DNA of 64,000 nucleotides from Pelagophyceae sp. CCMP2097 (lineage: Eukaryota > Sar > Pelagophyceae). Location: NCBI GenBank assembly GCA_026770575.1, contig MU657195.1, positions 339,680-403,679 on the forward strand, given 5' to 3'. Position numbers and translations under genes: made by a program. Positions 1,309 through 57,743 of this stretch are shown in pieces. The first letter of the stretch is position 1; each line of letters opens with the position of its first letter. Below the pieces are notes generated by a model. It saw only the letters and a program-made list of their open reading frames with translations. It was not told the origin of the DNA and searched no databases.

Positions 1309-4300
1309 ATGCTCTCGACGCTCCTCCGCGCGGCGGCGCTCCTCGGCATGGCCGGCGCGGTTTGCGAAGACGACGCGAACTGGCACACGAATGGCAAGAC
1401 GTCTAAAGACTGTGAGCCTTTCTGTGCACTCTTTCGCCTACGGCCGCGCCGCCTACGGCCGCGCCGCCCGCGCCGCCTTCGCCGACGCCGTTCTAGGCTC
1501 GTGGGTCTTCGAGAAGCCCGGCGACCGCTGCGCGGCGCTGGATGCGTCTGGCGTGCCGGGGTACCTCGCGTGCCGAGCGGCCTGCCTCTCTTGCCCTCAG
1601 CCCTGCGCCGACGTCACCGACGACGCTACCTGGAACGACGGCGGCTGCGCGGACGTGCGCGGGGACCGCGGCGAGATGTGCGGCGACTCTGACGCCGACG
1701 GTGCGCCCCTTAAACCTTTTTGCTTTTGCCGTTTCTTGCGTCTCGCGTGCCCCGAAAAAAACATCCACCAAAGCTGCCCGCCCCGCCCCACGCCGCGCCA
1801 CCCTAGGCATGTTTGCCTTCCAGGCGTGCCCCGGGTCTTGTTTGACTTGCGAGGGTGACTCTTGGTGTAGCGACTCTGAGGAGTGGCGGGGCGACATGAA
1901 GGGCACGTCGTCGGACAAGCAGACTTGTCAATGGGTCTCGCTCAACGCAGACGACCGCTGCGGCATCGTGGACGACGAGGGCATGTATGCGTACCAGGCG
2001 TGCAAGACTGCGTGTTTCTCCTGCGACTCTGCCGTGGACTGCGAGGCCCCCGACGCGGCTTCTTGCTCTTCCGAGTGCGGTTCAATGAACAGCAACATGT
2101 TCACCTACCAAACCTGCCCGCACGCCTGTGGCCTCTGCACCTACGACCCCACGGCGGCGCCGACGGGCGCGCCTTCGACTGGAATGCCGTCGTACGCGCC
2201 TTCTACTTTCGCGCCGACGACTGCCGTCCCTTCCTACGCCCCGACGACTGTGGCCCCGACGCTGGCCCCGACGCTATTGGGTGAAGGCAAGGCGCGGTTC
2301 ATGGCTTATGCGTCGGAATCGATGATGGTCAACGTTTCCGACGTGGTGACGTTCGACATGGTGCCCATCAACGCTGGAAAGGGCTTCGACGCCAACGCTT
2401 CCGCTTTCGTCGCCCCGAACTCTGGCACGTACGTCGTCTCGCTGACCGTGCTCGGTTCGCCTTCGGCGGGGCGCGGCGTTGGGAGCGGCGTCGAGGTGCG
2501 CGTGGACATGGAGGGCACCGGCTTCGGGCTCCTTTTCGCAAAGTGAGTCCATTTTTGATCCTTTTTGTTCTCCGCGATGGCGGCGGGGGGCGGCTGGGTT
2601 GCGGATGGGGTTTGCAAACCACACTGAGAGCATGCCGTCTGAGAGACCGCATCAAAGCGAGAGGCCGAGCGGGGCCGTCGAAGGCACGCTAAACGTGGCC
2701 TCGACAGTCGGACCGTCGTGGGTACGCCTTTCGAGAGTCGGATCGTCATTGCCACGTTTTACGCACCTTCGACCGAGAGACCGTAATCTGTCAATCACTG
2801 AGAGGGCGCATCACGTCGAACCAAGAGACCGGGTGGGACCCGAGAGACCGTCTCTTCGACCGTTCTTCCGTCCTTGCCACGCTCAACGTGGCCTCGACTG
2901 TCGGACCGGCGTTGCCACGCTATACGTGCCTTTCGACGCTTTCGTGCCTTCGACCGAGAGGCCGCATCCCGTCGAACGCTGAGAGGGCGCATTCTGTAAA
3001 ACCAAGAGGCCGGGCGGGATCGTCCCCCCGTCGTTGCCACTTTCGACCTTCACGGGCGCGCTGCTACACGTGTCTTTCGACAGTCAGACCGTCGAGCGCT
3101 GAGAGGCCGCATGCTGTCGAACCGAGAGCCGGGCGGGACCGTCGGACTGTCGTTGCGACGCTCAACGTGGCTTTGACTGTTGGACCGTCGTGGCCACGTT
3201 TTAATTGCCTTTGGATTGACGGATTGTGAGTGCCACGCGAAGCGTGCCTTTGGACCGTAAGACCGTCGTGGCTACGCGAAGCATGCCTTTGGACCGCGTC
3301 GTTGCCACGTTATACGTGGCTTCGACCGTCGGACCTTTACGGGCACGATCGACGTGCCTTTGACCGTTCAACCGGCATAGGCGCGCGACACGTGCCTTTG
3401 AGACTGGGTGGGACCTTTGAGACTGGGCGGGACCATCGGCCTGGCATTGGCTTGCGAGACGTGCCTTCGACCGACCTACCGTTTTCGCCACGCTCGACGC
3501 GCCTTTGCCCGTCGGACCGTCGAAGGCTCGCTATGCGTGCCTTCGACCGTCGGACCGTCGTGGGCACGCTATACATGCCTTCGACCGTCGGACCGTCGGA
3601 CCGTCCTTGCCACGCTACTAGTGGCTTCGGTCGTCGGACCGGCGTGGCCACGCGATGCGCGCCTTGGACCGTCGAGTCGTCGAAGGCACGCTATACGTGC
3701 CTTTCGACTGTCGGACCGTCCTTGAAATGCGAAGCGTGCCTTTGACCGTCGAAGCTTCACGGGCACGTGCCTTTGACCGTCCAACCGTCGTTGCCACGCG
3801 AACGCGTCGACCGTCGCCACTCCCCGCATGCCTTTGATCGTCCTCCCGTCGTTGCCACCCTCAACGTGCGGACCGCGATGCCCGGCCCAAGTGCAAGCAC
3901 CCCGAACGCATGCGTCTCGAGGAGCCGCGCTGTGTGGCGCACCGCATCGAAATCCCGATGGATGACTTTCCGTCGTATAGGCACGAGTCCAAGAGTATCA
4001 CGGTTCCTATCAAGCTCAACCGCGGCCAGTCCCTCGACGTCGCCGTCGTCAACGGCCCTTTGGAAGTCGACGGCTCGCCGGCGGTGGAAGTGGAGACGGC
4101 GGATGGTGGAATGATCACTTTAGAGAAGACTTCAGTGTTCTCCAGTGTCTTTTCGGCTTATTTGCTCCCAGACGTTGAAGACAAATCCTTTTACGCCGCC
4201 TACGTCGGCGATTCGAAGGCGCAGTCTTCGAAGCAGATGGAGATGGTGATCGATTTCGACGAGCCCATCACGGGGGACCGTTACTTGGAGTACGCGTACG

Positions 4301-5449
4301 AGGAAACGGACACGGGCACCCTTTACTATCCCGAGCTCAAGGGCATGTATTTATTCGCGGCATCCATCTCGGCGGAGATGCAAAAGGGCGACGCGGCCGT
4401 GGTCAACGTCTTTGTCGACGGGGAGAATTCCAAGTTTGGCGTGGAAATTCCTCTCTTTCAAGGGATGACCGAGTCTCAGAACTTCGCACTCGTTCTGCAA
4501 GTCGGCGAAAACGATGCCATCGCTTTACAAGCAAAGGGCGACGAGTTCCTGCTCGTGGGCGCGGAATCGCTGTACAATTCTTACTCCACGGCACTCAAGC
4601 TTGGTGACGCCGCATCGAGGCAAGTGTTTTCAGCCGTCTCCGATTCGTACAACGTCCCCGCGACGGGCAACGCCCTCGTGTTCGGCAAGGAGGCGGCGTT
4701 TGAGGTCCGTCTCTGCCTGGCGGGCGGGGACGCCCTTTCCGACAAGACCCCTTTTGACGAGACGCGGTGTCTTTCACCCTCGGCTTTCTAGGTGCCCGCG
4801 TCGGGGACGTACCTCGTCTCGTTGAAGGTGACGCTCGCCGACGCCTTTGGCGTTTCGGAGTTTGAAGTCTTTGTCGACGGAATTGGCTCGTGCCACGTTT
4901 TGCGCGTCGAAAGTGGCATGAAAAACTCGACGATGTTCACCACTTCCGCCTTCACCGCAGTCGTGCTGCGCCTCGACGCCGGGAGCGTGGTGGAGGTGGT
5001 GGTGGCGCAGACGGTGGACGCGATGGTCGCTGAACGTTCCAAGTCGCAGTACACAACCTACTTCCAGATGACCGCGCTCGACCTGCTTCAAGACTACGAG
5101 CCCCAGGTCAGTCCTCGCGGTCCTTCGAAACGGTTTCTCTCGACAGTTGGGAATTCCTCTATAGGAATTACTTACGCTCAAAAATTAGGCGTGCCTCATC
5201 CCCGACACCAAGTTCCAATCTCTCGGCGACGGCTTTTGCGACGCCTCGTTCAACACGCCCGAATGCGGCTACGACGGCGGCGACTGCTGCTCGGCGACGT
5301 GCATGGCCAACGCGACGTATACGTGCGGCTCCGGCACGCGCGGCGAATGCAAGGACCCTTCTGCGTACCTCGACGAAGTGCCCTACCCGGTCATCTGCGA
5401 AAAAGGCGACTGCGACTGCGACGATAATGCAGAGGGGTGCCCCGTCTGA
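1309..5449 (+). CDS. Secreted cysteine-rich / C1q-like / LNR multidomain protein
   Basis: Predicted secreted or cell-surface protein. Exons: 1309-1411, 1497-1700, 1807-2542, ~3892-4704, 4792-5106, 5189-5449. All junctions agree in phase except the acceptor of the ~1.35 kb third intron, which I could not place. The start MLSTLLRAAALLGMAGAVC is a signal peptide. Exons 1-3 carry repeated cysteine units (DC-WV--RC---ACK-AC-SC type), then a Pro/Thr linker. Three segments resemble C1q/TNF jelly-roll strands: FVAPNSGTYVVSLTV, YYPELKGMYLFAASIS and VPASGTYLVSLKV. The last exon is a Notch/LNR calcium-binding repeat with GDGFCD and ECGYDGGDCC. Binding or adhesion is likely; no enzyme motif is seen. The alternative is two genes split at the large intron, but C1q-like strands on both sides favour one. 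Confidence 0.68.
2560..3880 (+). repeat. Minisatellite filling intron 3 of the C1q/LNR gene
   Basis: Irregular tandem units built on GACCGTCGTTGCCACGCT followed by ATACGTGCCTTCGACCGTCG, period roughly 35-50 bp. They occupy nearly the whole intron between 2543 and ~3890. The family differs from the 12 bp arrays elsewhere. Apparent ORFs here are repeat artefacts. Confidence 0.8.
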
Positions 5450-5489
5450 GAGACTTTCCTGCATGACACGCTCACTTCCCTACGTGACA

Positions 5490-5590
5490 CGCTCCGCACG
5501 ACATATGCCGCGCGCCCCCTATATGACACGCCATGCCGTGCGCCCCCCTATGACACGCCATGCCGCGAGTCCCCCTATATGACACAAAAG
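5490..5590 (+). repeat. Short tandem repeat, ~30 bp unit
   Basis: Three to four copies of a unit like ATATGACACGCCATGCCGCG followed by CCCCCT lie just downstream of the C1q/LNR stop codon. Confidence 0.6.
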
Positions 5591-5639
5591 CTACTAAACA
5601 TCCATGATCCCGAGACGCATGAGCATTCGATGGGACTCA

Positions 5640-6780
5640 CGCCCTGCGAGGGAGCAGGTCGTCGGCTTGCCTTGACCCGTGACCCGAACCCGCGCGGGCG
5701 TCCGACTCGGACCCGGTCCGGCTCAAGCCGCACCCGCCAAAAGTGACCGGACCCGACCCTTGTCGCTGTATTGTAAAGAATACCGAACCTTCAAGCGGGG
5801 TGCTCGTGATCAAGCCGATTGCCGACACGTTGGCGCGCTTGACGCGCCCGGCCGCCGTTTGGCCGGACCGCCAGAAGGCCCGCGCGCCAGAGGGCCCGCG
5901 TGTTTTGGAACAGGCTTTCGACGCGGCTGCCGACATTGCCGACGCTGCGCTGGCGCAGAGCGGCGACAGGTTCAGGCTCATTTTCGAGACGCTCGGCATG
6001 GCGGCCGAGAAGTGGATCCCTGAGAACGCAAAACGGGCTGGTGCACTTTGCACCTCGAAAGGCATTCGAGAGCCTCGGCATTGTATTAGCGCAACAACCT
6101 TGCTTATCCTCGTTCGGCCTCGTTCGGGCCGGGGGCATTTGCGAGATGCGCTTCGCCTTCCGTTCGCGCCTCGAAAGGCGGTCCTTCGGATCGTCAACGA
6201 CGCAAAGGACGGCAGGATCCAGAGGTGGTGCACCGCACTTCACGCATCGGAAGCAAAAGTCTTCCGACAAGGGCCCTAGTAACGGCAGTCTATTACGAGT
6301 GAGGTGTGATACGGTGCTCACCAGGATTTCGCGTACGACGATCACGATTCGGTCTTCTCCGGCGCCTCTGAGCATCTGATGCCGTTTGCACCTCGGGTCT
6401 TCACCGAGTTGACTGTGACGGTTCGGGTTTTCCAACCGTATTCGCCGAAGCAATGCCTAGGCGACCGGGGCGTCGTGACCCCATAGATGCGACTGAGGCG
6501 CTGGAGAACGGCCTCGATTCTTCCAGGCCGGGCGCGGACCGAGTCCTCAAACGCAGCGACGCTGTGTTGGAGAGCGGTCGACGTCTGCTTCCCGCGGGAG
6601 GCGGCTTCGGTCCATTTTATCCGGTCAGCGTCGGTCTCGGTACTCGTTCGGGCCGGACCCGGACGGAAAGGACCGCCGTGCCCACAGCCCGAACGTCGAT
6701 GCCATTGACAGGGTCGCCGTACGGGGCCCCATGAGCCCATATTGGATAGGCTGGACCCCATACGGCCATACGCCACGCGG
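5640..6780. repeat. Intergenic dispersed-repeat segment, inverted partner near 63 kb
   Basis: No convincing gene. About 5655-5760 and 6625-6690 are degenerate CGGGT-type element fragments. About 6320-6620 is similar, in reverse complement, to about 62995-63260, for example the words for TTTCGCGTACGACG and CCCGCGGGAGGCGGCTTCGG. The block CCTATCCAATATGGGCTCATG (reverse strand, ~6728-6750) recurs at ~58185-58205. The 178-codon ORF at 5743-6279 has no recognisable domain and overlaps repeat sequence. About 6780-7048 holds nothing I can identify. Confidence 0.5.
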
Positions 6781-7048: not shown

Positions 7049-10000
7049 CTAGGCGGCGTCGGCGCCGCGGAATTCTTCGGGGGGCGCGAAGTCGTTGGTC
7101 GATCGGAAAGAGCCGGACTTTTCCTCGCGAAGCTGGAAATGCGCCTTGCCGTAATCCGCGCTTGGTTCGATCTTCGCTGAACGGCCGCGCGGTAAAACTA
7201 ACGGCGGCAGACCCTTCTTCGCGAAATCATCAGCCTGCACCGCGTTCGCCAAACGCTGCCGCGCCTGCGCCGAGCCCTTGCGCTTCGTCGAAGAGTCGTC
7301 TCGAAGTTTATCAGTCGGAGGGCCGTTGTTCTGGTGAAGCACGTGGAACCCGAGCACGCCCGAAACTTCCCGAGCGACTAAAACACCGCGAGTCGAGTTG
7401 CCGTTTGCATCTAATCTAGGCGAAAAAGCCGCAAAGCCGCAAACGCCCGGCACGACGCACATAATAATACCCCCCACGCCCGATTTAGCAGGGATGCCGA
7501 CGTCGACCATCCAGGCGCCGGCGCCGTTGTACCTAAGGAGGCGGTTCAACGGCATGTATGAAAAGGTTTGATCATATTCAACGTACATGCCACACGTCAT
7601 CATGGTCGAAACAGTTTGGTTGACGACCCACGGCGGCAGAACCTCTTCCCCGGTTCGCGGGTTCACGCCGCCGTTTGCTAAAGTCGCCGCGACGCAAGCG
7701 ACTTCCGCACAGTCGACGGAGATTGAGCAGGCCATGGTGTAAGACTCTAAAGCGATAACTCCTTCTTTTTCGTTGTCGATTAAGCGTCTCTTCACGCTTT
7801 CTGCGACGATGGTCCGATTGTTGCCGTTGGTTCCCATCTCGCTGTCGTAAACGCACTCGTCGAGCGAAGAAGTGGCCTCTTTGCCGAGGGACATGCCGTC
7901 GAACAACTGTTTGAAGCGGTTGAAGCGTTCGGCGGATGTGGTGCCCTTGACGAGCGAGGCTGTAGAAATCGCGCCCGCGTTGACGTACGGGTTAAACGGG
8001 CGGCCCTTTGAATCGAAGGAGATGACGTCGAACGGTCCTCCCGTGGGCTCGGAGCCGACCTAGAGGCGCTGCATGAGAGCTTTACTTTCCGGAATATAAA
8101 TCACTTGCCTTCTCATCGACTGCCTCTTGGTCGTGGTCGCCCAGCGCCAAAGCATAGAGCAGAGGCTTGCACGCCGACTGCAGCGTGAATCTCTTCGAAG
8201 AGTCGCCCGCGGTGTGCAGGTTGCCCTTGAGGTCGGAGAGCACGATGGCGAACGGGGTCGGGTCGGCGGAGGCGAGCTACAGGGAAACGCGGTTACAGCG
8301 TTTGTACACAAAATTCTGCATCCGTTGAGTTTGACCGTCTCGAGGGGCCGTCTCCAGGGGCCGTCGTCTCGAGAGGCCGGAGAGAGGAGCTTTCCCGAGG
8401 CGCCGTTTCGTGGGGCCGTCTCGAGGGTTCGTCTCGAGGGGCCGTCCGTCTCCAGGAGCCTTCTCGAAGCGCCATCGAAAGTGGTCGTCTCGAGGCGCCT
8501 TCTCGAGGGGCCGTCTTAAGGCACCGTCTCGAATGGCCGTCTCCAGGGGCCATCTCCAGGGCCCGTTTCGAGGTACCGTCTCAAAGGGCCGGCGCCGTTT
8601 CGAATGGCCATCGAAAAGGGCCGTCTCGAATGGCCTTCTCGAGAAGCCGGAGTCTGGAGCTCGGAGCAGCGACGGGTCTGGCCGTGGCACAAACCCGATC
8701 CTTCGAAGACGGGTTTGGTCTTTTGACAAACCCGCGACCCTTTGGGCTCGGCGCAAATTTCCGCAACCCGAACACACCATGAGGCATGAGGGTGTTTATT
8801 GATATCCCGGCAAGAGAAAACTGGAGAGCACCATCGAAGCTCCCGCCTTTGGAATCATCCAATGGAACTGCCGCAGAGGGGCGCGCACCTCTGGAATGTA
8901 GTCGGCCACCTTGCCGCCGTCGTCCGGTTGCACTCGCTCGAAGACCTCCTGCAAGATCTCGTCGACGTTGGACGGTAGACGGACCTATCGGAGCGTGCAA
9001 CCAAGGCAATGGAGACGTTTTCGCTTTGCTTGCTTAGAATCCACCCGCTTTAATAAGAGTTCTCTTGACTCGGAATTCCTAGGAATTCCTCTTGAATGTA
9101 GGGGAACAACTACTGAGTGCATAAGAAGCCAAATTCGAGACCAAACAGACAAAATGGTGCTCACCTGCGCCCGGTCCAGCATGGCCTTGAGCCGGCGGCG
9201 CTGCAGGCGCATGTAGAGGCAGCCGCCGACGGCGCACAGAATGAGCAGAGCGGCGCCGACCGACGCGACGAGGATTAAAAGGCCGCTCTTCACGCCGGAG
9301 GAGGAAGGGTCGCATCTGTTAAGAGGCCATTCGTCTAAAATGTCTAAGACGCGCTGGCGGTCCGCCATCGAAGGCGAATCGAAAAAAGAGGCCTCGATGG
9401 AATCGAACACCCGTTCGGAATAGATCCACCGCATGAGCTGCAAGGCTTGCGAAGGCCCGCCCTCGGATTCGCACTGCGACGGTCCGAGGAGGTCTTCGGC
9501 AATCGTCATCGCGTAGGACCGCGCGTAAGGCCAGCAGCCCGCACCGCTGCCGAAAGATAAGTCATAGACGAGACTCTGGAACCCAAAAGTTTGCGAAGCG
9601 AATCGGACCTACGACTATACCCTCAAGAGCGCATTCAAGCTGCCTCCAAAGGCGCGCGACGGCCCCCGAAGCACAAATCGAAGAATGGCATTCTCCCGAG
9701 GCCCTCCAAAGGCGCTGTCGAATGGCCCTCGAAAGGGGTCTCTCGAGGGGCCGTCTCGAATGGCCCTCTAAAGGGGCCGTCTCGAGGGGCCGTCCAAAGG
9801 CGTCATCCAATGCCACGGTCTCGAGGTGCCGTTTCGTATGGCCGTTGTAACCGTTTCGTATGGCCGTTGTAATGGGCCTCTCGAAGGGCCGTCTAAAGTC
9901 ACCGTCTAACAGCGTCGTCTCGAAGCACCGTTTCGAATGGCCGTCGAATGGCACCGTCCCGGGGGGGCGGAGAGAGGAGCCTTGCCGAGGCGCCGTTTCG

Positions 10001-13000
10001 AATGGCCGCCTCAAAGCTCCGTCCGACGGCGCCGTTTCGAATGGCCCTCTAAAAGGGGCCGTCAAAAAGGCACCGTACAAAGGCGCCTCCGGGGTCCGTC
10101 TCAAGGCGCTGTTTCGGATGGCCATCGAAAGGCGCCTTCTAAAGGCGCCTTTTCGAATGGCTATCGAAAGGGAACTCTCGAGGGGCCGGAGTCGAGGGGC
10201 CGTCTAAAGGCACCGTCTTGAACGGCCCTCTAAAGGGGTCGTCTAAAGTCGCCGTCTTCTTGGCGCCGTCTTGGCCGTCGATTGGGGTGCCGAACGGCGG
10301 CTTCAAAATGAGGATATCCTGCCTTTCGGGGCTGTTCTTCACCAGCCCCCGCTTCGGGAAACGCACCTGTTGCTCGTCGTTGTTCACACAAGCGCGTAAC
10401 GATTCGCGATTGAGATGGAAAGGTTGGGAGTTTGGCGAGGATCGGAACCCTGCGAGATTCGCAGACGGGACACTTCCGAGGGTCCACATGCCCAGTGAAA
10501 AGTCGTGGAAGTTGATAGAGGCCTCGACTTGCGGATCCGAAAAGACATCGCCCACGACCAAACATCCGAGTTGGGTCAGATAAGTAGAGTTGAGAACTCG
10601 AGTGCGACCGATGACATCGTCGAAGCCTTCCACATGAATCACCAAACTCGCAGTAAACACATCATTGACGTTGGATGGAGACGGGGCGTCGTCGTAGTTC
10701 GTCTCGTCGCTCCGAACCACCAAGCCGATTTTTTCATCGGGTAAATCGGATCGTAGTTGCTTCCAAGTCAGAGTCTTGCACGTGTAGATATCTGCGAGTT
10801 CTTGGTGCGTCAGAGACAAATCTGAGAGCGACCCGACGTGGTACATGGCCGCCACCCCTGCGGCACTGAACGGTGCGGCGAAGAACCCTGGCTTTAAAAC
10901 ACCTTCGTCCGTCTGTCCCTCTTTTAAAAGTGGCTGGCCGTTCTCGCCGAAGATGGCCGCCACTCCTAAACCACGGTCATTCCGATTCACTGCAAAGTCG
11001 TTTGAGGCGACTTCGACGTTCCAGACGACCTTTTCGTCGACGAGCTCGTAAACGGCCGTCACTAAAAGCATGCTCCGAAAGGCCGGTTCGATGGCGAAGA
11101 GAGTTTGTTCCTGCTTCTGGAACCGTTTCTTGATCTGGCGGGGTTGGCCGTTTTCGAGGCAGAAATTGTCAGTGACAAGGTCGTCTACAATGCTCGAGGA
11201 GAGGAAGGTTGGAAGGTTCGTAAATCCGAGCTTGTTGCTCAGGCCACTCAGAGTGTCTGAGGTGTAAAACCATTCCAAAAAAGCCAAAGTCTTTAAGCGA
11301 GTACCTACAATCAAACTGAGGCGGACCGGGGTGGTGAACGAGGCCCCCGGCGGCGCGCCTCCGCAACGCGCCGCCGACAATCGCAAAGACGGTCGCTCGG
11401 ACAGACCCTCGGACTCTCGCGTGGATGGTCCCTCGACGGTCTTTCGGACGATCCCCTTGGCGGTCCTTAGTTCCTTTGGACAGTTCCATTCGAGGGCCCC
11501 TTGGAGGGTCCTTCGAGGGCCCCTCTGCGACGGTCCCGTGGACGTTCCATGGAACGGTCGTTTGGACGGCCGCAGAGACTGCGGCCCCTCTGTGACGTCC
11601 CGAGGGCGGACCCTCGGACGGACCCTGCGACGGTCCCTTGGGCGGGCCTTTGGACAGTCCCTTGAGCTATCTCTCGACGGGCCCTCGGCGGGTCCTCTGC
11701 GACGGTCCCCCGGACAGTCGTTTGGATTGTCCCTCGAAGGGTCCCTCAGCGCCCCTCTGGGCGATCCCTCGGACGGGCCCTCGGTCTGTCACTTGGAATG
11801 GCCCCTCGATGTCGCTGCCTCGGATGGTCGCTTGGGCGGTCCCTTGGATGGTCCCTCAGTCGCTTTACAATTGTAAGGGCGGCCCCTTGGAGGGTCACTC
11901 GGCTGCCGGCCCCTCTCGAAGGCCCCTCTCGTTGGCCCCTCGAAACGGCCTCCCGGAACGGCGCCTTTGGACGGCCCCTCGAAGGCCTTTCTCGCAGGCC
12001 TCTTGAAGGGCCCCTCGATACGGTCCCTTTAGACCAACCTTCGCCTCTCAAACGACCCTTCGAGATGTCCCATCTAGACCTTCATTCGAAACGACCCCTT
12101 TAGACCGTCCTTCGAGATGGCCCCTCGAAACGGCACCTTTGGACGGCCCCTCGAGAGGGCCCCTCGTGCCGAACGCTCGAGACGGCGCCTCGAAACGGTC
12201 CCATCAAACAACCCTTCTCGATCGAATTGAAAGAGGCATTGCGGGGGGCTGTCCGGCGGGCTTTTCAAGGGCTCCTCACAGAGGCCTCGCGAGCGACCGC
12301 GCAGCAGAAGCCGTGTCAAGGCGTCTTCGGGTCTGGTTTTCAATCTTTGCCAAACCCGAAGAAAGGGTCATTTTGAGACCGCCTCGAGGGCCGTCAAGAG
12401 ACTTTCTAGAGAGACTGTCTAGAGGGTCCCGGGAACGGCTCGAGGGCCGTCTCAAAAGCTGTCTAAAGATCCATCTGAATGACCGTCTCGAGGGGCCGTC
12501 TCGAGGGCCGTCTTCAGGGTCGTCTCGAGGCCGTCTCGACGACCCTCAAGACCGCCTGAAGATCGTTTTGAGGCCGTCAAGAGTGCCGTCAAGAGACCGC
12601 CTCGAAGACTATCCAGTGGACCGTCTCGAAGCCGTCTCGAGGGCCGTCTTGAAGACCGTCTTAAAAGCCGTCCTAAGAGCCGTCTCGAGGGCTGTCTCAA
12701 GGACCGTCTTCAGGAGTGCCTCGAGGACCGTCTCAAGGCCATATGAAGGCCCGTCTCGGTATCGTCTCGAGGACCGTCTTCATGCCGTCAAGAGGGTTGT
12801 CAAGAGACCGTCTCGAGGGCCTTCTCGAAGGCCTTCTCGAGGACCGTCTTCAGCGCCGTCTCAAGATCGTCCAAAGGACGTCTCGACGTCGAAAGGGTCG
12901 TCGAGAGACCGTCAATGTCGTTTTGAGACCGGTTTGAGGCCGTCTCGAAGAACGTCTTGAGGTTCATCTCGAAGCCGTCTCAGGGTTCGTCTCGAGGACC

Positions 13001-15910
13001 GTCTTCAAAGCCGTCTGAAGGGCTGTCTGAAGAGCTGTTTCACGGGCCGCTTTTGGGCCTTCTATAGTCCGTCTTTAGGGCCGTCTTCGGGACCGTCTCA
13101 AGGTCGTTTTAAGGCCGTCTTCGGGACCGTCTCAAGGTCGTTTTAGGGCCGTCTTCGGGACCGTCTTCAGGACCGTCATGATTGCCGTTAAGAGGGCCGT
13201 CTCAAGGACACCGTCCCGAGGTCGTTTTGAGACCGTTTTGAGGGCCGTTACGAGGACCGTTCTTCGGGACCGGCTCGATGCCGTCAAGGGGGGGCGTCGT
13301 GAGGGCCGTCAAGAGAAAGTCTAGAGGACTGTCTTGAGGACCTTCTTCAAGCCGCCTGAAAATCCATCTGAACGGCCGGCTGGAGACTGAGATCGACTCG
13401 CGGGCCGACTCGAAGACCGCTGTCTCGAGGGCCGTCGGAAGAGCCGTCTCGAGGGCCGTCTCGAGGGCCGCACGAGGACCGTCTCGATTCCGTCAAGAGG
13501 GCCGTCTCGAAGCCGTCTTCAAGCCGTCTGAGAAGCTGAAGAGCCGTCTTCAGGGCCGTCTCGAGGTCGGTACTGAGGTCGGTTTGAGACCGTCACGAGG
13601 GCGTCTTCTCGGACCGTCTTCAGAACCGCATCGGTGCCGTCTCGAGGGCCATCTTAATGCCGTCCCGAGGACCGTCCCGAGGCCGTCTTCAGGGCCGTCT
13701 CAAGACCATCTCAAAGTCGCTTTGAGGCCGCCTCGATGCCGTCAAGAGACTAGAGGGCCGTCAGAAAGCCGTCTCGAGACCGTGCGTAGGGTCGTCTTCT
13801 CGGGCCGTCTGGAGACCGTCGAAAAGGGCTGTCTTCTCGGACCGTCATCAAAAAGAGGTCCGTCTCGACGACCTTCTTAAAAGAGGTCCGTCTCGAGGGT
13901 CGTTTCGATGCCGTCAAGAGGGCCGTCTTGAGACCGTTTGAAAGGCCGTCTTCGAGGACCGTCGAGAAGGGCTGTCTCGAGGACCGTCTCAAGGTCGTTT
14001 TGGGACCGTTTCGAGGACCGTCTCAAGGTCGTTTTGAGACCGTTTCGAGGACCGACAAGAGACCGTTTCGAGCGACGTCTTCAAAGCCAGACGAAGGGCC
14101 GTCTCGAGGGCGGCCTCTTTAAGACCGTCTTGAAGGCCGTCTTACGGACCGTCCCAAGACATTTCGGAGGGCCGTCTCTTCAGCCGGTTTTCCGACCGCA
14201 GAGAGGTGTTGCATAAGAAGGAATGACACGGCATCGTACCGCAGTCGAACATTTCAGCAGCGTTGTCCATGTAGTTGACGCCGTCGTGGAAGCCCTTGCG
14301 CACCACAAAGTACGTAAAGCCCACGATGGGGTACCTACCCGTGGTGCGGTGGGCCTGCCGAAGCTCGGCACAAAAGAGCGAACCAAACAAGAACACCACA
14401 AGAATAAGGGCCCATTGGTGTGTCGGCCCCAGGCAGGGTGAATCACAAAGACGCACGCCCGGAACCCAGACGCGTCGATGAGGTTCCCGATGCCTCTTTC
14501 GTCGAGGAACCCGCCGAGCTCCAAGAGCGTAAAGTCGACGGAATCTCCGTTCGCCAAAACGGGGAAACCCGCCTTGTTGATCAGCAGAGCCTGAACCAGC
14601 AACGCTTGGTTGGCGTCCGCGACGCCAAAGTACCCGATCGACCCGGGTAACGATAAAACAGCAGCTACAGCACCGACGGACCCGTTTTCTCGAGTGTACG
14701 ACCATTGCCGGCCTTGGTGCACCGGTTTCTGGCAAGTCACAGTTCCCGAAGTTGCGAAGCCCGAGTCAAAGACCCACGAAATACCTTCACATTCGCCTTC
14801 CCCACCGAAGCAATTCTTCTTCGACGGATTGGAATCACACGTACCGTCCGTATAAACCCCCCCCGGGCACTCCAACTCTTCCATGCCGTCCTCGCACCAG
14901 TCCTGGACGTCATGCCCTCCTAACCTGGTCGAAAAGTCGCCGGAAAACGCCGACAACGCATTGGTGAAGATCTCGGTGGTGCCGGACCCGTCGTCTCGGA
15001 CGACCACTCGGATAGTCACATCAGGCATTTTTAAAAGCAAGCCCCGCGTCTGACTGTTCTGCAGATCCAGAATGCGAGGGTCGGTCCACTCGAAGATGTC
15101 CCCCAAGAAGATCATCGGTAAAGTCTCACGATCTAAAACTAAAGATGCACCCACTTTCGCGAGAGCCTCTAGATTGTAGGCGGGCACCACTGCCGACGCA
15201 GTAGCAACGTACATCTGCGCGTCCGGGTGCTCAGCGTACTGTGAAGCGGATAACGCGGAATCGCTGCCTGCGAAATCGACGAGCCCGAGTAAAACGCTGT
15301 CCTTGCCAACCGTTGACCCCGTAGGGTAGTAGTCCACCGCGTCAAACGTCGCAAAAGCATCGGTGGCGATCTGGTATAGTTGATCAGGCAAACCGGAGCC
15401 GCAGGCGCAGACGTCGTCGGAGGCGTATAAGCGGCGGACCTAGTCGTCTGGTAAAACCGCTTCCGCAGGCTTTCTTGTCGCTTCGACGGCGGCCCCTAAA
15501 CGGGCCCTCTGTCGCTTTGAATGCGGTTTCTATACGGGCCCTCGGAATGCCACTCGGCTGCCGCTGCCGCTCCCGCTGCCGCTATATGCGACGTCCCCCG
15601 GGCGAGCCCTCGGACGGACGGGTCCTCTCTCAAACCATCTGGCAATCCGCAGGCGTCTTTCACGGCACGCCCCCGCTTCCGCCGCACACGCGTCTCTGAC
15701 AAGGAACCCTGCGTTGCTAGGGCCCTTCAAAGAGGCCTTGCAAGTGAAGCCTTGATCGCCAAAGAGGCCTTGGAGGGGGCCGCCCGGAGTTGGTTATCCC
15801 GCTCTCTCGGCGTTGCGGCGCACCGTGCCGTTGACCAACGTCGCGCACTGGTCGAAGAGGACCTGCGCGCGCGCCGTAGCCGCGAGCAGGAGGAGACGCC
15901 GGACAACCAT
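7049..15910 (-). CDS. Signal peptide - two PstS-like domains - TM - glutaminase fusion protein
   Basis: Converts glutamine to glutamate plus ammonia at the C-terminus. Exons in transcript order: 15824-15910, 14457-15439, 14240-14334, 10367-11304, 9165-9608, 8889-8984, 8109-8276, 7049-8059. Together they give 3822 nt, 1273 aa, with every junction phase-consistent. Signal peptide MVVRRLLLLAATARA. PstS-like domain 1 has GSTVGK (70-75), VDFAGSD with D89 and RDDGSGT (177-183), matching PstS phosphate ligands. Domain 2 (~390-720) keeps the fold words but lacks GSGT (RSDETN, 586-591). The membrane helix is ~810-833, followed by RLQRRR. The glutaminase domain is ~854-1190, with DYIPE, the catalytic S915-A-C-K918 (Ser-x-x-Lys), YVNAGAIS and PAKSGVGG. 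A charged tail follows. The intron at 8060-8108 is GC-AG. A split into two genes is unlikely because introns 5, 6 and 7 join at phase 0 without a stop or a start codon. Confidence 0.85.
8325..8780 (-). repeat. Array C and inverted-repeat element fragment in intron 6 of the fusion gene
   Basis: About 8325-8650 is tandem GGGGCCGTCTCGAG-type units. About 8660-8775 is a shortened element copy starting GGAGCAGCGACGGGT and containing AAACCCGCGACCCTTTGGG. The junction with CTCGAGAAGCCGGAG parallels those at 697-722 and 35728-35760. No coding exon is seen between 8277 and 8888. Confidence 0.75.
9640..10360 (-). repeat. Minisatellite in intron 4 of the fusion gene
   Basis: Tandem units such as GGGGCCGTCTCGAATGGCC and AAAGGGGCCGTCTAAAG fill the intron from 9609 to 10366. 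Its donor is CAACAG followed by GTGCGT and its acceptor TCGTAG. An ORF reads from exon 4 through this intron, but joining at the donor restores the PstS-like frame with VRFASQTFGFQ. Confidence 0.8.
11340..14235. repeat. ~2.9 kb minisatellite intron (intron 3 of the fusion gene)
   Basis: The intron from 11305 to 14239 is almost wholly repetitive. About 11390-11990 is array A (CGGACGGTCCCTTGG words). About 11990-12300 is CCCCTCGAAACGGC units. About 12360-14180 is a distinct family of GGGCCGTCTCGAG / GACCGTCTTCAAG units. The flanking exons join at phase 1 to read FDCG-TRLKTLAFLEWF. ORFs up to 270 codons inside are repeat shadows. Confidence 0.85.
15440..15823 (-). repeat. Intron 1 of the fusion gene with module M of the composite repeat
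   Basis: The 384 bp intron lies between the signal-peptide exon and the first PstS-like exon, phase 0. About 15690-15790 holds the words AAGGAACCCTGCGTTGCTAG and AGAGGCCTTGCAAG. They recur at ~35455-35560, 36130-36230, 43690-43810 and (inverted) 49920-50010. About 15530-15640 is array-A-like. Confidence 0.7.
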
Positions 15911-16485: not shown

Positions 16486-17472
16486 TCAGTCAACTAGCAG
16501 TGCCGGCCGTTGGGCCGCTGGACGCAAGGCCCCTGTTGGAAGACGTAGGCCTGCGGCGTATTGGCACCGAGCCTGGGCGGCAAAGAAACAGCTCGACGGC
16601 GCGTGGCGCGGCTCGCCGACGGCGTCGAGTTGCGCGTGCTTGTTGTACTCGTCGGGGACCTTAGCCGCGCGGATGTCGACCGGCTTGCCGGCGCCGAGGG
16701 CTCGCGCTCGGCCGTAGTTCGTGACGTTGTTCGCGATCGTCTTAACGTCCCCAAGGCTTTCCGCTCCGGACAAGTCTTGCCACTTTAAGTCGGGGACCAT
16801 CCTGCGGCAGTCGCGGTACCCGCGATACGTGTTGCATGCCGCCGCGCCGCCGCCGGCGCAGACGTTCGCAAAGAGGCCGAAGACTTCGGTGCTGCATGGC
16901 ACGTTGGCCTCGGCGAGGCCGGCGGCCAGGCGCTCCAGGTTCGCGTCGTGATATTCGCCGCGCGCGTTCTTGTGGTTGACGAAGTGGGGGTAGCTCTTGA
17001 GCTTGTGCCCAAACTTGTCGAGCTCGACGTCCAGGATCCGGCGCCCCACGAAGGGCGCGCACGCCGGGCTCGGGAGGCCGTACCTCCCGGCCACCATCTT
17101 GGCCCATTCCTCGTTCGAGATGGCGCACAGGAACGTCGGGAGGGCCGTGACCAGGCTGGACGAGAAGCGGTCCGCGAATTTTGGCGACTGTCGCCGCAGG
17201 TCGAGCGGGTCCAGGAGCGCGAGGTTGCGGTTGAGCAGCTCAAGAGCGGCCTCCTCGCGCTGAGCGGTGATGGCCTTCTGGAGCTTGACGACGGGTCCGT
17301 CGGGAGACGTGCCGATGGTCTCAGCGTGCGCCGAGAATGACCCCGCCTCGATGCGGTTTGCGAGGGAAAAATCGACGACGGAGTCACTCGGAAGCACGGA
17401 CCGCGCATCCGACTTTTTCGGCCCTTGCGGCTCACCACGGACGAGCATGCTGTGCACGACAACTCGATGCAC
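16486..17472 (-). CDS. Hypothetical protein, 328 aa
   Basis: One long open frame with ordinary composition and no tandem repeat, so it is probably a real or recently real gene. I recognise no domain. The middle contains GRRILDVELDKFGHKLKSYP and a Cys-containing stretch CNTYRGYRDCRRMVPDLKWQ. The last ~35 residues turn arginine/proline-rich and may be read-through past an unseen donor. The start is uncertain: the first Met lies in MHRVVVHSMLVRGEP, and the piece encoding HSMLVR recurs near 20.5 kb. It sits head-on behind the fusion gene (start at 15910). About 15911-16485 shows only AT-richer sequence and no gene. Confidence 0.4.
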   Translation of the reverse strand: MHRVVVHSMLVRGEPQGPKKSDARSVLPSDSVVDFSLANRIEAGSFSAHAETIGTSPDGPVVKLQKAITAQREEAALELLNRNLALLDPLDLRRQSPKFADRFSSSLVTALPTFLCAISNEEWAKMVAGRYGLPSPACAPFVGRRILDVELDKFGHKLKSYPHFVNHKNARGEYHDANLERLAAGLAEANVPCSTEVFGLFANVCAGGGAAACNTYRGYRDCRRMVPDLKWQDLSGAESLGDVKTIANNVTNYGRARALGAGKPVDIRAAKVPDEYNKHAQLDAVGEPRHAPSSCFFAAQARCQYAAGLRLPTGALRPAAQRPALLVD

Positions 17473-17814
17473 ACGTGGGCGTCGTTGCCCGCCGCGTGCG
17501 AACGGACCGCAGAAGCACCGTCCAAAGACCCGTCGGAACGTCTACGCACTCTGCCGCAGCGCAGCGACCCGGCGCACGATGGTGCATCCGTCCTTCCCTC
17601 CGGAAGGCGCGAGCGCCGGAATTTGGATGACGGACGCCGAAAAGATACGGCATCGCACCGGGTTTCCTCCACAGTTTGTCGCGTTTTCTCTATTCGCCGC
17701 GTGTATTATCATAATAGGAATCAATAGTCACCAGTAGGAATTTCTAATATTGGGATTCGAGTCGCGCGGTCGCGAGCGGCGTCGACGTCACGGGTACGCT
17801 GGCTCTCCGGAAGG

Positions 17815-23891: not shown

Positions 23892-25829
23892 TTATAGGGA
23901 TGACGCGGCGGCGTCGCGTGCGTCGTCGTTTCGTGCCGCGTCGTCGAGCGCCGCGAGCGCTTGCCAATGGTCCAAAACCAGAGCGAGGACCGCGCGGACG
24001 CCGAAGCCCGTGGCCCCGCCGGCCCGGACGTGCGCGAGGCCGCCGTCGTTGCTCGCGGCGGCCACGTCGAGATGGAGCCAGGGGACTTTGTCGGAGACGA
24101 ACTTCTGTAGGAAAGCGGCCGCATAAATGTGGTCCGCTTCGGAGGCGACTCTGCACTGTAAAACATCCGCGACGTCAGACTCCAACGCCTTTAGAAACCC
24201 AGAACCCTCGTCGACGGGCGGACACGGCCAGAGGCGCTCGCCCGACTCGTTGCCCGCGTCGACGATTGCATTGAAAACCCGGTGGTCGCCCCTGTTTGTG
24301 AACACTGCACCGTACGAGTTCGACACGGCGCCAATCGCCGAACCCGTCAGCGTCGCCACGTCTACGAGCAGCGCCGGCGGCTCGACGGCGTCGCGGAAGG
24401 CGGGCTTCGGGGCCTTGCCCGACGCCAAAGCGAGTGTATCCGCCAGAACCATGCGCCCTTCGGCATCCGTGTGCACCACCTCAATCGTCGTGCCGCAAAC
24501 GGCCGTGACTACGTCGTCGGGCCGCGACGATTCGGGGCCGAGTAGGTTGTCTGTCACGGCGAACCAAGCCTCGACTGGGCGGTTCGCAAGGTGCGGCGCC
24601 GTAGGGGCGAGGCGCGTTAAAGCGACGAACGCCCCGAGGACGGATGCGGCCCCTGCCATGTCGCGCTTCATGCCTCGCATGCCGGCCGCGCCCTTGACGT
24701 TGACGCCTCCAGTGTCAAACGTGACGCCCTTGCCGACGAGCACGACGGGCCGCAGCGTCGCGCCCGCCGGCTTGAACGTTAAACGCACCATCGCACAGTC
24801 CCTCCGCGGCGAAGCTTGCGCGACGGATACGAACGCGCCGGCGCCGGCCTCTTGTAGAGCGTCGAAGTCGAGTTCGTCGTACGTTGCGCCGCAGTCCTCC
24901 GCGACGGCGCGCAAAGCGCCGCGCAGCGCTCCCGGCGAAAGAAAGTTCGGCGGCAAGTGCGCGAGTCGGCGGCAGAGCTGCGACGCGATTGCAGTCTCTT
25001 CCGACCTCTTCATCTTCGCTTGGCAAGTACCGAGCCCGACGAACGTCACAACGAGCGGTGCCTTCGCCGCAGCGGGCTTGGCGAACGACGGCAGCACGTC
25101 TGCGTTTGCGTACGCGGCGGCGACGAACGCGTCTCGAAACGCATCTTTCGCGTCTTGATTTACAAGTCCGCCACCGTAGACAAGTACATTTCGACCTCCA
25201 ACACCGTCCAGCGCCTGGTGGAGCGCGAGACCGGCGTGGGTGAGCGATGCAAACGTCGATGCGCCCTGGCGCACACCTATTGTCGCACGCCGCCGTGATC
25301 TCGGGTCGTAGCGAGTGTCGACCACCGTATGTCGTCGCCCGGTGCCCCCTCGGGGCCTCGGATGTCCAAAGCGCCCCCGGGATGCCGGCTCCGTCTGTCC
25401 TGTCTTTCCGAGCGTCATCCTCGACGCAGTCTGGAAACCGACGACTCGCGTCCCTCGTTCGTTCGGCAGCTCCGTCGCCAGCGCGACCGCGCCGTCGCCG
25501 CCGCGCTGCCGCATGCGCGCTGCGCAGGCGTCGGCGTACGGCAGGCCTTCGGGCCACGGTGCGTCCTTGCCGAGGAGCACGACGACCGCGTCCGCGCTAT
25601 TGTCGAACGCGTAGCGCAGATAACCGGTATCTGTAGACTCCACGTCCTTCAGCAAAACGTGCCGCGCCGCCGGCAGCACGATGGCGCGGACGTCGGCGCA
25701 GGTGGCAGCACCGCCGGCAGATGCGATGGAGCGCCTCCGCGTCGCCGACGGGCCCAAAGGCGGCCCCGCAAACGCGAGGCCGCGCCGCGCGCTCAGGAGC
25801 AGCGCGAGGCACCTGCTGCGAGACACCAT
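23892..25829 (-). CDS. M17 leucyl aminopeptidase
   Basis: Two-metal exopeptidase that removes N-terminal residues, usually a hexamer. Reading from ATG at 25829 gives 645 aa. The frame stays open further upstream, but that part is low-complexity and this Met opens a plausible targeting sequence (MVSRSRCLALLLSARRGLAF). The C-terminal catalytic domain is intact: VGKGVTFDTGG with K367 and D372, NVK with K379, MKRDMAG with D390, and HTDAEGR with D455, E457 and R459. Spacing matches E. coli PepA. The signature is HTDAEGRM where the family normally has NTDAEGRL. Residues ~150-200 look odd (PASRGRFGHPRPRGG) and may hide a short intron or frame error. The N-terminal domain is otherwise normal (GRNVLVYGGGLVNQ). 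Confidence 0.85.
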   Translation of the reverse strand: MVSRSRCLALLLSARRGLAFAGPPLGPSATRRRSIASAGGAATCADVRAIVLPAARHVLLKDVESTDTGYLRYAFDNSADAVVVLLGKDAPWPEGLPYADACAARMRQRGGDGAVALATELPNERGTRVVGFQTASRMTLGKTGQTEPASRGRFGHPRPRGGTGRRHTVVDTRYDPRSRRRATIGVRQGASTFASLTHAGLALHQALDGVGGRNVLVYGGGLVNQDAKDAFRDAFVAAAYANADVLPSFAKPAAAKAPLVVTFVGLGTCQAKMKRSEETAIASQLCRRLAHLPPNFLSPGALRGALRAVAEDCGATYDELDFDALQEAGAGAFVSVAQASPRRDCAMVRLTFKPAGATLRPVVLVGKGVTFDTGGVNVKGAAGMRGMKRDMAGAASVLGAFVALTRLAPTAPHLANRPVEAWFAVTDNLLGPESSRPDDVVTAVCGTTIEVVHTDAEGRMVLADTLALASGKAPKPAFRDAVEPPALLVDVATLTGSAIGAVSNSYGAVFTNRGDHRVFNAIVDAGNESGERLWPCPPVDEGSGFLKALESDVADVLQCRVASEADHIYAAAFLQKFVSDKVPWLHLDVAAASNDGGLAHVRAGGATGFGVRAVLALVLDHWQALAALDDAARNDDARDAAASSL

Positions 25830-25962
25830 CGATCGCACGGCCCCTCGCTGAGGTAAATTGGCCCGGCTTCTAGGGTCTCCGTGGCAGCCCTGGGGCCCGC
25901 GGCGTACGGCGCTTGAGCGATCCACCGAGACACTGCCGGCCACGGAGCGCAAATCCTCGCCG

Positions 25963-27310
25963 AATGAAAACCCGCACCGTCGAGACGTGCGCCAGCACCG
26001 CGCCGGCGCCGCCGCGCCGCGCCGCCGCCGCCACCGCCGCGCCGCTGCCCCCGGACGAGGCTTGCGACGACGACATACCATCGCCCATCGACGAGGACGA
26101 AGCCGAGCGCGAGGACGACTGCCTTGGGGCCCTGGCCGCCATGAAACTCGTCGTCGACTTTGAGAACGGCACCGATGCGCACGCCTGGGCGCTGTCGTGG
26201 TATTTGATGCCTCCGGTGGTGCAGGGAAACGGTGCAATACTTACAGTTACCGTCTAGACGAGCGTACGACTTGGAGACCCGCCGGACGAAGAAATGTGGC
26301 CTCGACGGCGACAAGGTGAGGCCCGCCGACGACAAGGCGCTGCTGCAGCACGAGGTACGCCTCCACCCCACGTCTTCTTGAGCGCCCGTCCCAGTGGAGA
26401 TCGGCTCCGTGCGCGGTCCGACCATCCTTTAGAAATCCTTTGGAAATCCTTTGGAAATCCTTATTTTCTCCTCGCAGGGCACCGAATGCGGAAAGGAGGC
26501 GTCCGCCGACGGTCGCTGCTTCTACTGGTTGCTCATGTCGCTTCTGATCCAATGGGCTGCGAGCCCGCGCCCCCGCCGGGCGTCGAATTTTGTGTGGCCG
26601 CAACCGCAAGACGCGCGCGGTCGTACAACATACGCCGGCGCCAGAAGATCCTGCAGCTCTTGTGGACGAAGCGCGCGAGCCTGGTGGTTGTCGAGTTCGA
26701 CTCCCGCGTCTGCCGGCTTGGCGGAAGGCGGCTTAGTGGTCACAGATGAGAAGCGGACGTACCGGTACCTCTCGAGCCAGGACGAGCGCGGCAAAGAGTG
26801 AGGACGCTCGCCTGGGACAAAGAGGTGGCGCACAAGGACACGCTGGGCTTTTACGCCACCAACGACGCCTTGGCCGAGTCAGTCTTCGGCGGCGTCGGCC
26901 AGGTCCTCAAGGAAAGCGGCACGATCGGCATTGCGGCGGCGTCGGCAGTCGCTAAGGCGCGCCCCAACGGCGACTTCGAGCGGGGCTTCGTGCACCATCA
27001 AACGCCAACGGCGAGGCCGCGCGGCGGCGTAAGGGCGCACTCTGCAGTCCTTGACGGCGGCGCGGGGCGGCGCGTTCTACGGCCTGGAGCGGAACATGAT
27101 CATATCTCTGGTCGAGTGGGCCCGCCGCGACGTCGAGGACTCGCGCAAAGTACGCCGGGCAGGTTGTTGGCGTGGCCGCGGGCACGGCCGTTGGCGCAGC
27201 GGTCGGCGCGGTCGTGGTCGCGGCCGTAGGCATGGCTGTGGTCACGGCGCGGCCGTCGGCGTCGTTGCCGTCGGCGTCGTTGCGAGCCACTTGTGGTACT
27301 TTGTGATATA
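25963..27310 (+). CDS. Unrecognised multi-exon locus
   Basis: Several coding-like pieces in series: an acidic start (CDDDIPSPIDEDEAEREDD, ~26065), then ETRRTKKCGLDGDKVRPADD (~26275), GTECGKEASADGRCFYWLL (~26480), KILQLLWTKRASLVVVEFDS (~26645), VVTDEKRTYRYLSSQDERG (~26740), DTLGFYATNDALAESVFGG (~26845), and a glycine-zipper hydrophobic tail GVAAGTAVGAAVGAVVVAA (~27170). They lie in different frames. Some joins look like introns (donor GAG/GTACGC, acceptor CTCGCAG/GGC), while others may be breaks. A short AATCCTTTGGA tandem repeat (~26425-26462) sits in one intron. No function is assigned. Multi-copy or element origin is possible but unproven. Confidence 0.35.
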
Positions 27311-56470: not shown

Positions 56471-56829
56471 GTCCAACGTCTCGAATGCGGGCCCTGAGGC
56501 GGATGTAAAGAGGGCACGTTCACTCCGACGTTTCGCCGCGTCGAAAAGGGGCCTCGTCGGGGTCCGGTTTGCGGGCCCCCGGGCCGGAGAAATAAAAAAA
56601 TGCCTTGCGACGGAGAAAAAGTTGCGCAGGTCCCGGAGACGGCCTCTGCAGCCGTCGACGGTGCAGAGACGGTGATGGACGGCGTCGCGGTGTACAACGG
56701 CCAGAGCACCACGTCCATCGACCGCATCATGCACCAGGGAGAGGGCGGGCCCTGGCTCCGACAGTCTCTGTGCCACCGGCCCGGGGCCCGGGCGCGTTGA
56801 GAAAACCGCTACCCCGATCTCGCCTTCTT

Positions 56830-57374
56830 GCGGGCTGCGAAGATGTGGTTCGTTGCGTATGGCACCGACTTCGGTCCCAGATAAATCTTGCGCACGTCAA
56901 TGCCGGTGGCGTGTCGCTCGCGCGCCCCCCCCTTTCAGCATCGACGGCGAGCACCTCTGTCGAAGTTAAACCGCCCCCGAGCACGAGGATCCGCGGCGCT
57001 TCATCTGCAGCGTCGAGTCGAAAGTCTGCGATGCCATTGCGCCCAGCCTGCACGGTTGGCCCGGGCGCAAACTCCATCGTCGCCACGTCCAGGAGCTCGG
57101 TGGTGGTCAATGCTATGCTTGCCGAGTCCCGTCCGCCGATGACGAAGACGTGTCGAGTATCGACGGGCACAGCCGCGCAGCGGAAGCGTGCCGAACTCAT
57201 CGACGGATCGGGTGCGAACGCCATAGTAGTCCGGATGTCGAGGATCTCCGTCGTTTGCAAATATTGTCCTGCACCTGATTTGCCACCAGCCACCATGATG
57301 TGGTGCTCGTCGAGCGCGACGGCCGCGCATCCACACCGTGGAGAGGCCATGGCGGGCCCGGGCGTGAAGACCAT
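56830..57374 (-). CDS. Kelch-repeat protein, fragment or one exon
   Basis: Open frame with three to four kelch units: MVFTPGPAMASPRCGCAAVA, HHIMVAGG, TTEILDI, RHVFVIGG, TTTELLDVATMEFAPGP, PRILVLGG, STEVLAVDAERG. It is a close paralogue of the plus-strand pseudogene at 19.5-20.1 kb, which also ends in STEVLAVERHRG. Upstream (57440-57735) the frame runs into minisatellite, so the 5-prime exon is not identified, and downstream the frame continues into sequence of doubtful coding nature to 56727. BTB and N-terminal parts are not found nearby, so this may be a gene fragment. Confidence 0.5.
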
Positions 57375-57439
57375 CGTCACGGCAAGGCCCCTTCCGTGTT
57401 TCTGCAAGGCCCAGATGAACCCCTGGAGGCAAAGGCCAG

Positions 57440-57735
57440 AGAAGGCGCCCCTTGGAAACGCGGATCCTCGGAAGGCGCCTCGCACGGGCCCTCGCATGAA
57501 GGCCCCTCGCACGGGCTTTTGCAAGGCCCCTCGCAGGGTCCCTCGCACGGCCTTTTCAAGCCCCTCGCACGGGTCGGCCTCTTCAACGGCTCCTTGTTTG
57601 GTCCGAGGGTGGGCCTTGAAGCAGGGTCCCTTGCAAGGCCCCTCGAAAAGGGCCCGTGCAAAAGGCCTCTGGAAAGTCCGTTCCACTAAGTTTTTCTGTA
57701 AGTGCCTCGAAAAGGGCCCTCGCAAGGCTCCTCGT
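57440..57735 (-). repeat. CCCCTCGCACGGGC / CTTGCAAGGCCC minisatellite
   Basis: Same family as 32440-33480 in TRM11 intron 5, opposite orientation (CCTCGCACGGGCTTTTGCAA). Confidence 0.75.
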
Positions 57736-57743
57736 ACGGGCTG

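Follow-up and report, generated by a model that had tools for sequence, protein, structure and literature searches.

Gene Structure at the Locus

The window analyzed here is a 64,000-nucleotide stretch of the genome of Pelagophyceae sp. CCMP2097, a marine stramenopile alga (assembly GCA_026770575.1, 66.2 Mb; contig MU657195.1, labeled C32, 433,572 bases; positions 339,680 to 403,679). Its minus strand carries a gene, running from 15910 to 7049, that has nine exons and encodes a predicted protein of 1255 residues with two PstS-like domains, a transmembrane (TM) helix, and a glutaminase domain. The gene is one of seven paralogs, labeled C32 (the window copy), C536, C6, C74, C17, C23, and C39.

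All exons are on the minus strand. Exon 1 (15824..15910) contains the start codon, a short stretch resembling a signal peptide by hydropathy only, and the beginning of domain 1. Exon 2 (14457..15439) holds the bulk of PstS-like domain 1 with the pocket words GSTVGK, DFAGSDS, and VVRDDGSGT, and exon 3 (14240..14334), both junctions of which are present in transcript P0003, lies close to the end of this domain. Intron 3 (11305..14239) is 2935 nucleotides in length and, by eye, full of degenerate repeats. Exon 4 (10367..11304) encodes the final helix of domain 1 and most of the degenerate domain 2. Exon 5 (9165..9608) completes domain 2 and adds the TM helix (residues 811-829) and the basic stretch RLQRRR. 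Exon 6 (8889..8984) encodes a predicted cytosolic linker and the start of the glutaminase, including DYIPE. Exon 7 (8109..8276) contains the S915-x-x-K918 motif, and it is here, at residue 922, that the identity of P0003 to the window copy stops. The glutaminase core is in exon 8 (7587..8059). Exon 9 (7049..7532) contains the glutaminase end (CGMY, KSGV) and a C-terminal tail with GRSAKIEPSADY.

The start at 15910, the stop at 7049, and the junctions 14457/14334, 9165/8984, and 8889/8276 given in the preliminary description were all found in the sequence, with GT..AG borders. Its count of eight exons and 1273 residues has been corrected, since it had retained a 54-nucleotide intron. This intron 8 (7533..7586) is in frame, has GT..AG borders, contains no in-frame stop, and is an insert not present in the paralogs. 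At its position, C536 and C6 read CGMYNGAGAW in an unbroken frame, and the models of the remaining four paralogs show this reading too. Because bases 7586-7533 form an intron separating exon 8 from exon 9, the protein is 1255 residues long. Intron 7 (8108-8060) is 49 nucleotides long with a GC..AG border. Introns 7 and 8 are placed from the paralogs, as the window copy's own transcript does not reach them, and intron 1 is supported by the deposited model P0008 rather than by P0003.

P0008, the deposited model of the window gene, is 599 amino acids in length. It has a different, upstream first exon, contains domain 1, and stops inside intron 3; this annotation misses the fusion. Part of its first exon is taken from a 351-amino-acid open frame at 16489-17541 (minus strand), which has no Pfam match and is probably a separate gene. 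Introns 3, 4, and 6 (11305-14239, 9609-10366, and 8277-8888) are full of degenerate GACGGCCCTCGAGAC-like repeats, as judged by eye.

Evidence for the Fusion

A Pfam scan of the window protein, the profile search proposed in the preliminary description, matched both expected families: PF12849 (PBP_like_2) in two stretches with an E-value of 1.2e-19, and PF04960 (Glutaminase) at residues 873-1159 with an E-value of 1.2e-90. The PstS-like domains, the TM helix, and the glutaminase belong to one protein. Transcript P0003 (MMETSP) matches the predicted protein at every position of residues 105-922 and spans junctions 2/3, 3/4, 4/5, 5/6, and 6/7. The identity extends from domain 1 through the TM helix and 50 residues into the glutaminase; beyond this point the transcript follows C74, C536/C17, and C6. 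The boundary between the TM exon and the glutaminase exons had been named as the place where separate transcripts might begin or end, and P0003 crosses it at junctions 5/6 and 6/7.

Other copies contain the same join. C536 and C6 each encode domain 2, the TM helix, and the glutaminase in one open frame of 832 codons, and P0004 joins these three parts in C74. A wrong joining of two neighboring genes by the gene model has next to no probability. The truncated P0008, which lacks domain 2, the TM helix, and the glutaminase, would fit such an artifact, but P0003 extends from domain 1 as far as the glutaminase in the window copy, and in two paralogs no intron is needed to join the parts. For the family, the two-gene artifact is ruled out by the unbroken frames in C536 and C6; for the window copy, P0003 speaks against it.

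P0002 (MMETSP) and P0001 (JGI) are, like P0003, mosaics of paralogs, because short-read assembly merges near-identical copies. Public transcripts of the PstS-glutaminase paralogs call for piece-by-piece checking, since P0001, P0002, and P0003 mix several genes.

Genome searches scored only the best candidates, and the counts of matches and loci are therefore lower bounds. The glutaminase profile gave at least 14 exon-level matches at no fewer than seven loci, and the order of PstS-like domain followed by glutaminase is identical at all seven glutaminase loci found. Every PF12849 match (at least 12) and every domain 1 match (at least 21) falls at these seven loci. A metagenome protein that is 38% identical (P0005) contains PF12849 followed by PF04960, and stops after position 91 of the latter profile. 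Since its domain order is the same, the fusion probably occurs in more than one species.

The Seven Paralogs

The ratio of nonsynonymous to synonymous substitution (dN/dS, Nei-Gojobori) was calculated for the 15 pairs among the six intact copies. It is 0.15-0.51 for domain 1 and 0.16-0.64 for domain 2 (14 pairs each, one pair with saturated dS being omitted), 0.11-0.31 for the glutaminase (15 pairs), and 0.62-2.26 for the C-terminal tail. The values for the three domains indicate purifying selection among the six. The seventh copy, C39 (G000:C39:232566-236939), was left out of this calculation; its spliced model has two in-frame stops, at the first of which the deposited model P0009 ends, and these could reflect either a pseudogene or a mistake in the assembly. 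Within the otherwise diverged tail, C32, C536, C6, C17, and C23 (five of seven) keep a short word, [GT]R[SP].[RK][IV]EP..[ND][YF].

The Glutaminase Domain

The glutaminase domain is complete. It matches PF04960 with 304 bits (cut-off 27) over profile positions 1-285 of 286, and the catalytic pair S915/K918 is located in QSACKPLLY, which starts at residue 914; the full domain and the Ser-x-x-Lys dyad of the preliminary description are thus confirmed. All seven paralogs keep the Tyr of DYIP, the Ser and Lys of QSA[C/S]KP, the Asn of NP[YF][VI]NAG, the Glu and Asn of SEM..N.NN, the Tyr of YTMAC, the Tyr of CGMY, and the Val of KSGV. These correspond to the nine active-site positions of the kidney-type enzyme KGA. 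The domain aligns to a bacterial salt-tolerant glutaminase with an E-value of 3.3e-60 and to the human kidney enzyme with 2.2e-55.

It is improbable in the extreme that the domain, paired with the ectodomain, senses glutamine or has a different amide as its substrate. The deposited name of P0004, merely "beta-lactamase/transpeptidase-like", would allow it, but the full-length profile match, both alignments, and the nine retained positions argue for an ordinary glutaminase.

The protein shares the complete domain, the S-x-x-K motif, and the other active-site positions with the serine-dependent glutaminases (PF04960; YbaS, YbgJ, and the animal kidney and liver types). Known glutaminases are soluble or mitochondrial. 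The window enzyme differs from this group in being preceded by a pair of binding domains and a TM helix and in having no match to the ankyrin family in the Pfam scan at E <= 1. In kidney-type glutaminase, which contains ankyrin repeats, phosphate acts on the enzyme itself. For this reason, and because no ankyrin match was found here, the earlier analogy to the phosphate-activated kidney enzyme carries little weight.

Membrane Topology

The strongest TM candidate of the window protein is at residues 811-829, in agreement with the helix first proposed at about 810-833. Across the seven paralogs the strongest candidate begins at residues 799-826 with Kyte-Doolittle values of 2.54-2.97, and a few weaker stretches are also present. 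Every paralog begins with a hydrophobic stretch like that of a signal peptide (10-residue maximum 1.83-2.98). The signal peptide proposed earlier stands as a stretch of the expected type, on hydropathy and with the window copy at the bottom of the range. In the 15 residues after the TM helix there are four or five Lys/Arg in six of the seven paralogs and two in C17; before the helix there are none to three. By the positive-inside rule, the Lys/Arg that follow the helix predict that the glutaminase faces the cytosol, and this makes the release of ammonia or glutamate across the membrane, as first suggested, unlikely.

The PstS-like Domains

Domain 1 has the PstS fold, and its best solved-structure matches are phosphate binders (the comparison covered domain 1 only). 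It scores 149.6 and 62.1 bits, in two pieces, against a bacterial PstS profile. Domain 2 scores 20.5-31.0 bits against this profile in the other six paralogs, and the window domain 2 aligns to five of these six at 42-51% identity. Domain 1 contains RDDGSGT and domain 2 lacks GSGT, as had been noted. The phosphate pocket of PstS comprises T10, F11, S38, D56, R135, S139, G140, and T141. The window copy keeps the last six of these, with Gly at T10 and Leu at F11; the anion pocket that the preliminary description proposed to check thus keeps most of its residues and is altered at these two positions. C17 and C23 keep the same six, with Ser at T10 and Leu at F11. All seven paralogs keep S38, R135, S139, and G140.

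The PstS proteins of bacterial ATP-binding cassette (ABC) importers (PF12849) resemble domain 1 in fold, in most pocket residues, and as its best solved matches. They differ in that the window protein has a degenerate second copy in tandem and is attached to both a membrane helix and an enzyme. The permease PstC (TIGR02138) gave no match in the genome, while the same search, which covered PstC and not PstA or PstB, was positive in all 14 control genomes. As no PstC match was obtained, a role in uptake is disfavored, and ABC uptake was rejected.

The Ectodomain on Other Outputs

A search with the ectodomains of Heterosigma, Prymnesium, and two of the paralogs returned 806 hits, and the following figures are from the best 120. 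The majority are single-domain, bacterial-type PstS proteins; among the highest-ranking of these, the named bacterial ones belong to Anaerolineales or Anaerolineae. In a search with P0015, five loci were found, two in Anaerolineaceae or Anaerolineales at 68-70% and the other three at 28-39%. Eighteen of the best 120 carry PF12849 together with PF00003, the domain of class C G-protein-coupled receptors (GPCRs), in precomputed Pfam assignments; these include Heterosigma akashiwo and Hondaea fermentalgiana. Other named matches include Prymnesium parvum (P0020) and Palpitomonas bilix (P0064), the latter with just 3.2 bits in domain 2. The Cymbomonas and Hanusia matches span only about half of the query. 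Many of the tandem-type members are metagenome proteins without a known species.

P0045 has tandem PstS domains, one strong TM candidate, and then a phosphodiesterase (PDE) domain (PDEase_I, E 1.5e-55). P0052 has the same arrangement followed by poly(ADP-ribose) polymerase (PARP) and WWE domains. In P0049 a guanylate cyclase match is under the cut-off (19.3 vs. 21.9 bits), and P0006, P0063, and P0064 contain Ephrin_rec_like. The window protein has the layout of this proposed tandem family: a strong PstS domain 1, a weak PstS domain 2, and then a TM helix.

The pocket was counted in 29 of 36 long non-pelagophyte tandem-type proteins; P0037, P0057, P0061, P0089, P0099, P0100, and P0116 were omitted as partial or cut short in domain 1. 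All 29 retain S38, R135, S139, G140, and T141, and 28 retain D56. Position T10 is Ser in 21 and Thr in 8, F11 is Phe in 22 and Leu in 7, and D137 is Asp in 22. A quick tree of domain 1 was built from these 29 proteins, six of the seven paralogs (C39 being omitted for its stops), 26 of 78 bacterial single PstS proteins, and six others. A branch with SH-aLRT support of 86 (not starred) has the 29 proteins and the six paralogs together on one side, which places the glutaminase group among the tandem proteins. This group forms one clade (100, starred) beside P0063 (95, starred), a GPCR with Ephrin_rec_like.

The tandem-PstS class C GPCRs of H. akashiwo (P0014) and H. fermentalgiana (P0042) share the two-domain ectodomain with the window protein and keep the domain 1 pocket. 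Their output is seven helices, whereas the window protein has one strong TM candidate followed by the glutaminase and no PF00003 (7tm_3) match in its Pfam scan. P0045 and P0052 have the layout of the window protein, with two PstS-like domains, one strong TM candidate, and an enzyme, but their enzymes target a second messenger or ADP-ribosylation rather than a primary metabolite. The natriuretic-peptide receptor guanylyl cyclases have an external flytrap, one TM helix, and a cytosolic catalytic domain. The window protein repeats this layout with another flytrap family and an amidase output.

One class C GPCR match was found in the CCMP2097 genome. Its frame has a different ectodomain, so the tandem module occurs in this genome on the glutaminase alone, as far as searched. 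This 7tm_3 match (G000:C483:6000-12500, ORF 2616-5807) is in a frame that opens with repeat-like sequence of beta-helix type. After the helices, by eye, there are histidine-kinase-like words and, in another frame, receiver-like words. The frame may encode a fusion of a GPCR with two-component elements. A scan of viral contigs with the tandem alignment found no relative, a weak negative as it used only two short peptide patterns.

In the literature, seven diatom class C GPCRs are reported to have N-termini like periplasmic binding proteins, four nearest to class C receptors and three nearest to sugar ABC components (PMC3727952). The term "phosphate-binding" was not found in that source.

Interpretation

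On balance, and with modest confidence, we read the window protein as a single-pass phosphate receptor-enzyme that would set the glutamine pool by external phosphate. The signal peptide would export both Venus-flytrap domains from the cytosol. Domain 1 would be the phosphate-binding domain of PstS fold, and domain 2, a degenerate PstS relative, probably serves as a scaffold or in dimer formation. Domain 1 would close when it binds inorganic phosphate or a closely related oxyanion. The change may then travel through domain 2, the TM helix, and the short linker to the cytosolic glutaminase and alter the rate at which glutamine is converted to glutamate and NH4+. External phosphate would thereby set the glutamine pool, a nitrogen-status signal. 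We infer the plasma-membrane location, phosphate as the ligand, and the coupling with its sign from these features. The best argument is that one input module sits on several, mostly signaling, outputs, and hence that the ectodomain may be a sensor here too. The ligand sensing suggested in the preliminary description gains indirect support from the class C GPCR, PDE, and PARP outputs and from a pocket that is mostly kept.

Several observations weigh against this reading. The three transcripts are paralog mosaics, and synonymous sites are near saturation in many paralog pairs. At 1.83, the window copy has the weakest signal-like stretch among the seven paralogs. Every paralog also has a second hydrophobic stretch (1.98-2.03) within its glutaminase, interpreted as a core strand of the enzyme. 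Domain 2 of the window copy scores only 4.6 bits against the bacterial PstS profile and, searched alone by sequence against solved chains, gave no match at E <= 1. Confidence of the fold model is low in the glutaminase part, so neither coupling nor the orientation of the parts is read from it.

The remaining points concern the pocket. Position T10 is Gly in the window copy and Asn in C6, F11 is Leu in all seven paralogs, and D56 is Glu in three of seven (C536, C74, and C39). As these positions have changed, the ligand or the affinity may differ. A receptor-enzyme for another oxyanion or a phosphorylated metabolite, perhaps differing by paralog, would account for the changes, but it is unlikely given the four residues kept throughout the paralogs, the fold match to phosphate binders, and the retention of D56 in nearly all other tandem proteins examined.

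A glutaminase that is constitutive and simply tethered to the membrane is also doubtful. Here the PstS-like pair would hold or concentrate phosphate or provide surface contact, with no signal crossing the membrane. The TM helix and linker diverge among paralogs (30-71% identity) and no known coupling element was identified, as such a tether would permit. The fusion of this ectodomain elsewhere to GPCR, PDE, and PARP modules is a better fit to signal input than to storage, and the genome gave no PstC match.

Coupling of phosphorus to nitrogen is a plausible use of the proposed phosphate receptor-enzyme. When phosphate is resupplied, diatoms soon step up their pathways of nitrogen uptake and assimilation, and the means by which they sense it is described as unknown (PMC11448323). 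If the reading is correct, external phosphate would set the glutamine level in pelagophytes without a second messenger, coupling phosphorus and nitrogen in one protein.

Flytrap receptor-enzymes are already known; the glutaminase output and the tandem PstS input are new. Open-licence PMC yielded no paper on a fusion of PstS with glutaminase, on tandem-PstS receptors, or on a membrane glutaminase (subscription papers were outside the search). Few receptors are known to make a primary metabolite, instead of a second messenger, as their catalytic product, and the window protein would be one of them if the glutaminase is its output.

More tentatively, and somewhat short of probable, the tandem proteins may form a new protist family of cell-surface phosphate receptors, in which PstS was captured, doubled, and plugged into interchangeable outputs. 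These would be class C GPCR, PDE, PARP, glutaminase, and perhaps cyclase, and the nearest named PstS relatives are from Anaerolineales. A phosphate-receptor role across the family, suggested by fold and pocket conservation, would be new in kind. The family supplies candidate phosphate receptors open to cloning and testing, and the glutaminase form would physically link both nutrients.

Other Genes in the Window

A frame at 23895-26240 (minus strand) contains a cytosol (leucyl) aminopeptidase domain (Peptidase_M17, E 1e-83). At 1497-2543 (plus strand) there is a C1q match under the cut-off (21.8 vs. 23.7 bits), and a cysteine-rich stretch at 5189-5449 (plus strand) resembles a Notch LNR repeat; the two are perhaps one gene. 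Repetitive open frames like the intron repeats also occur at other sites in the window, for example at 33910-34953. A Kelch-repeat frame is located at 56730-57989 (minus strand).
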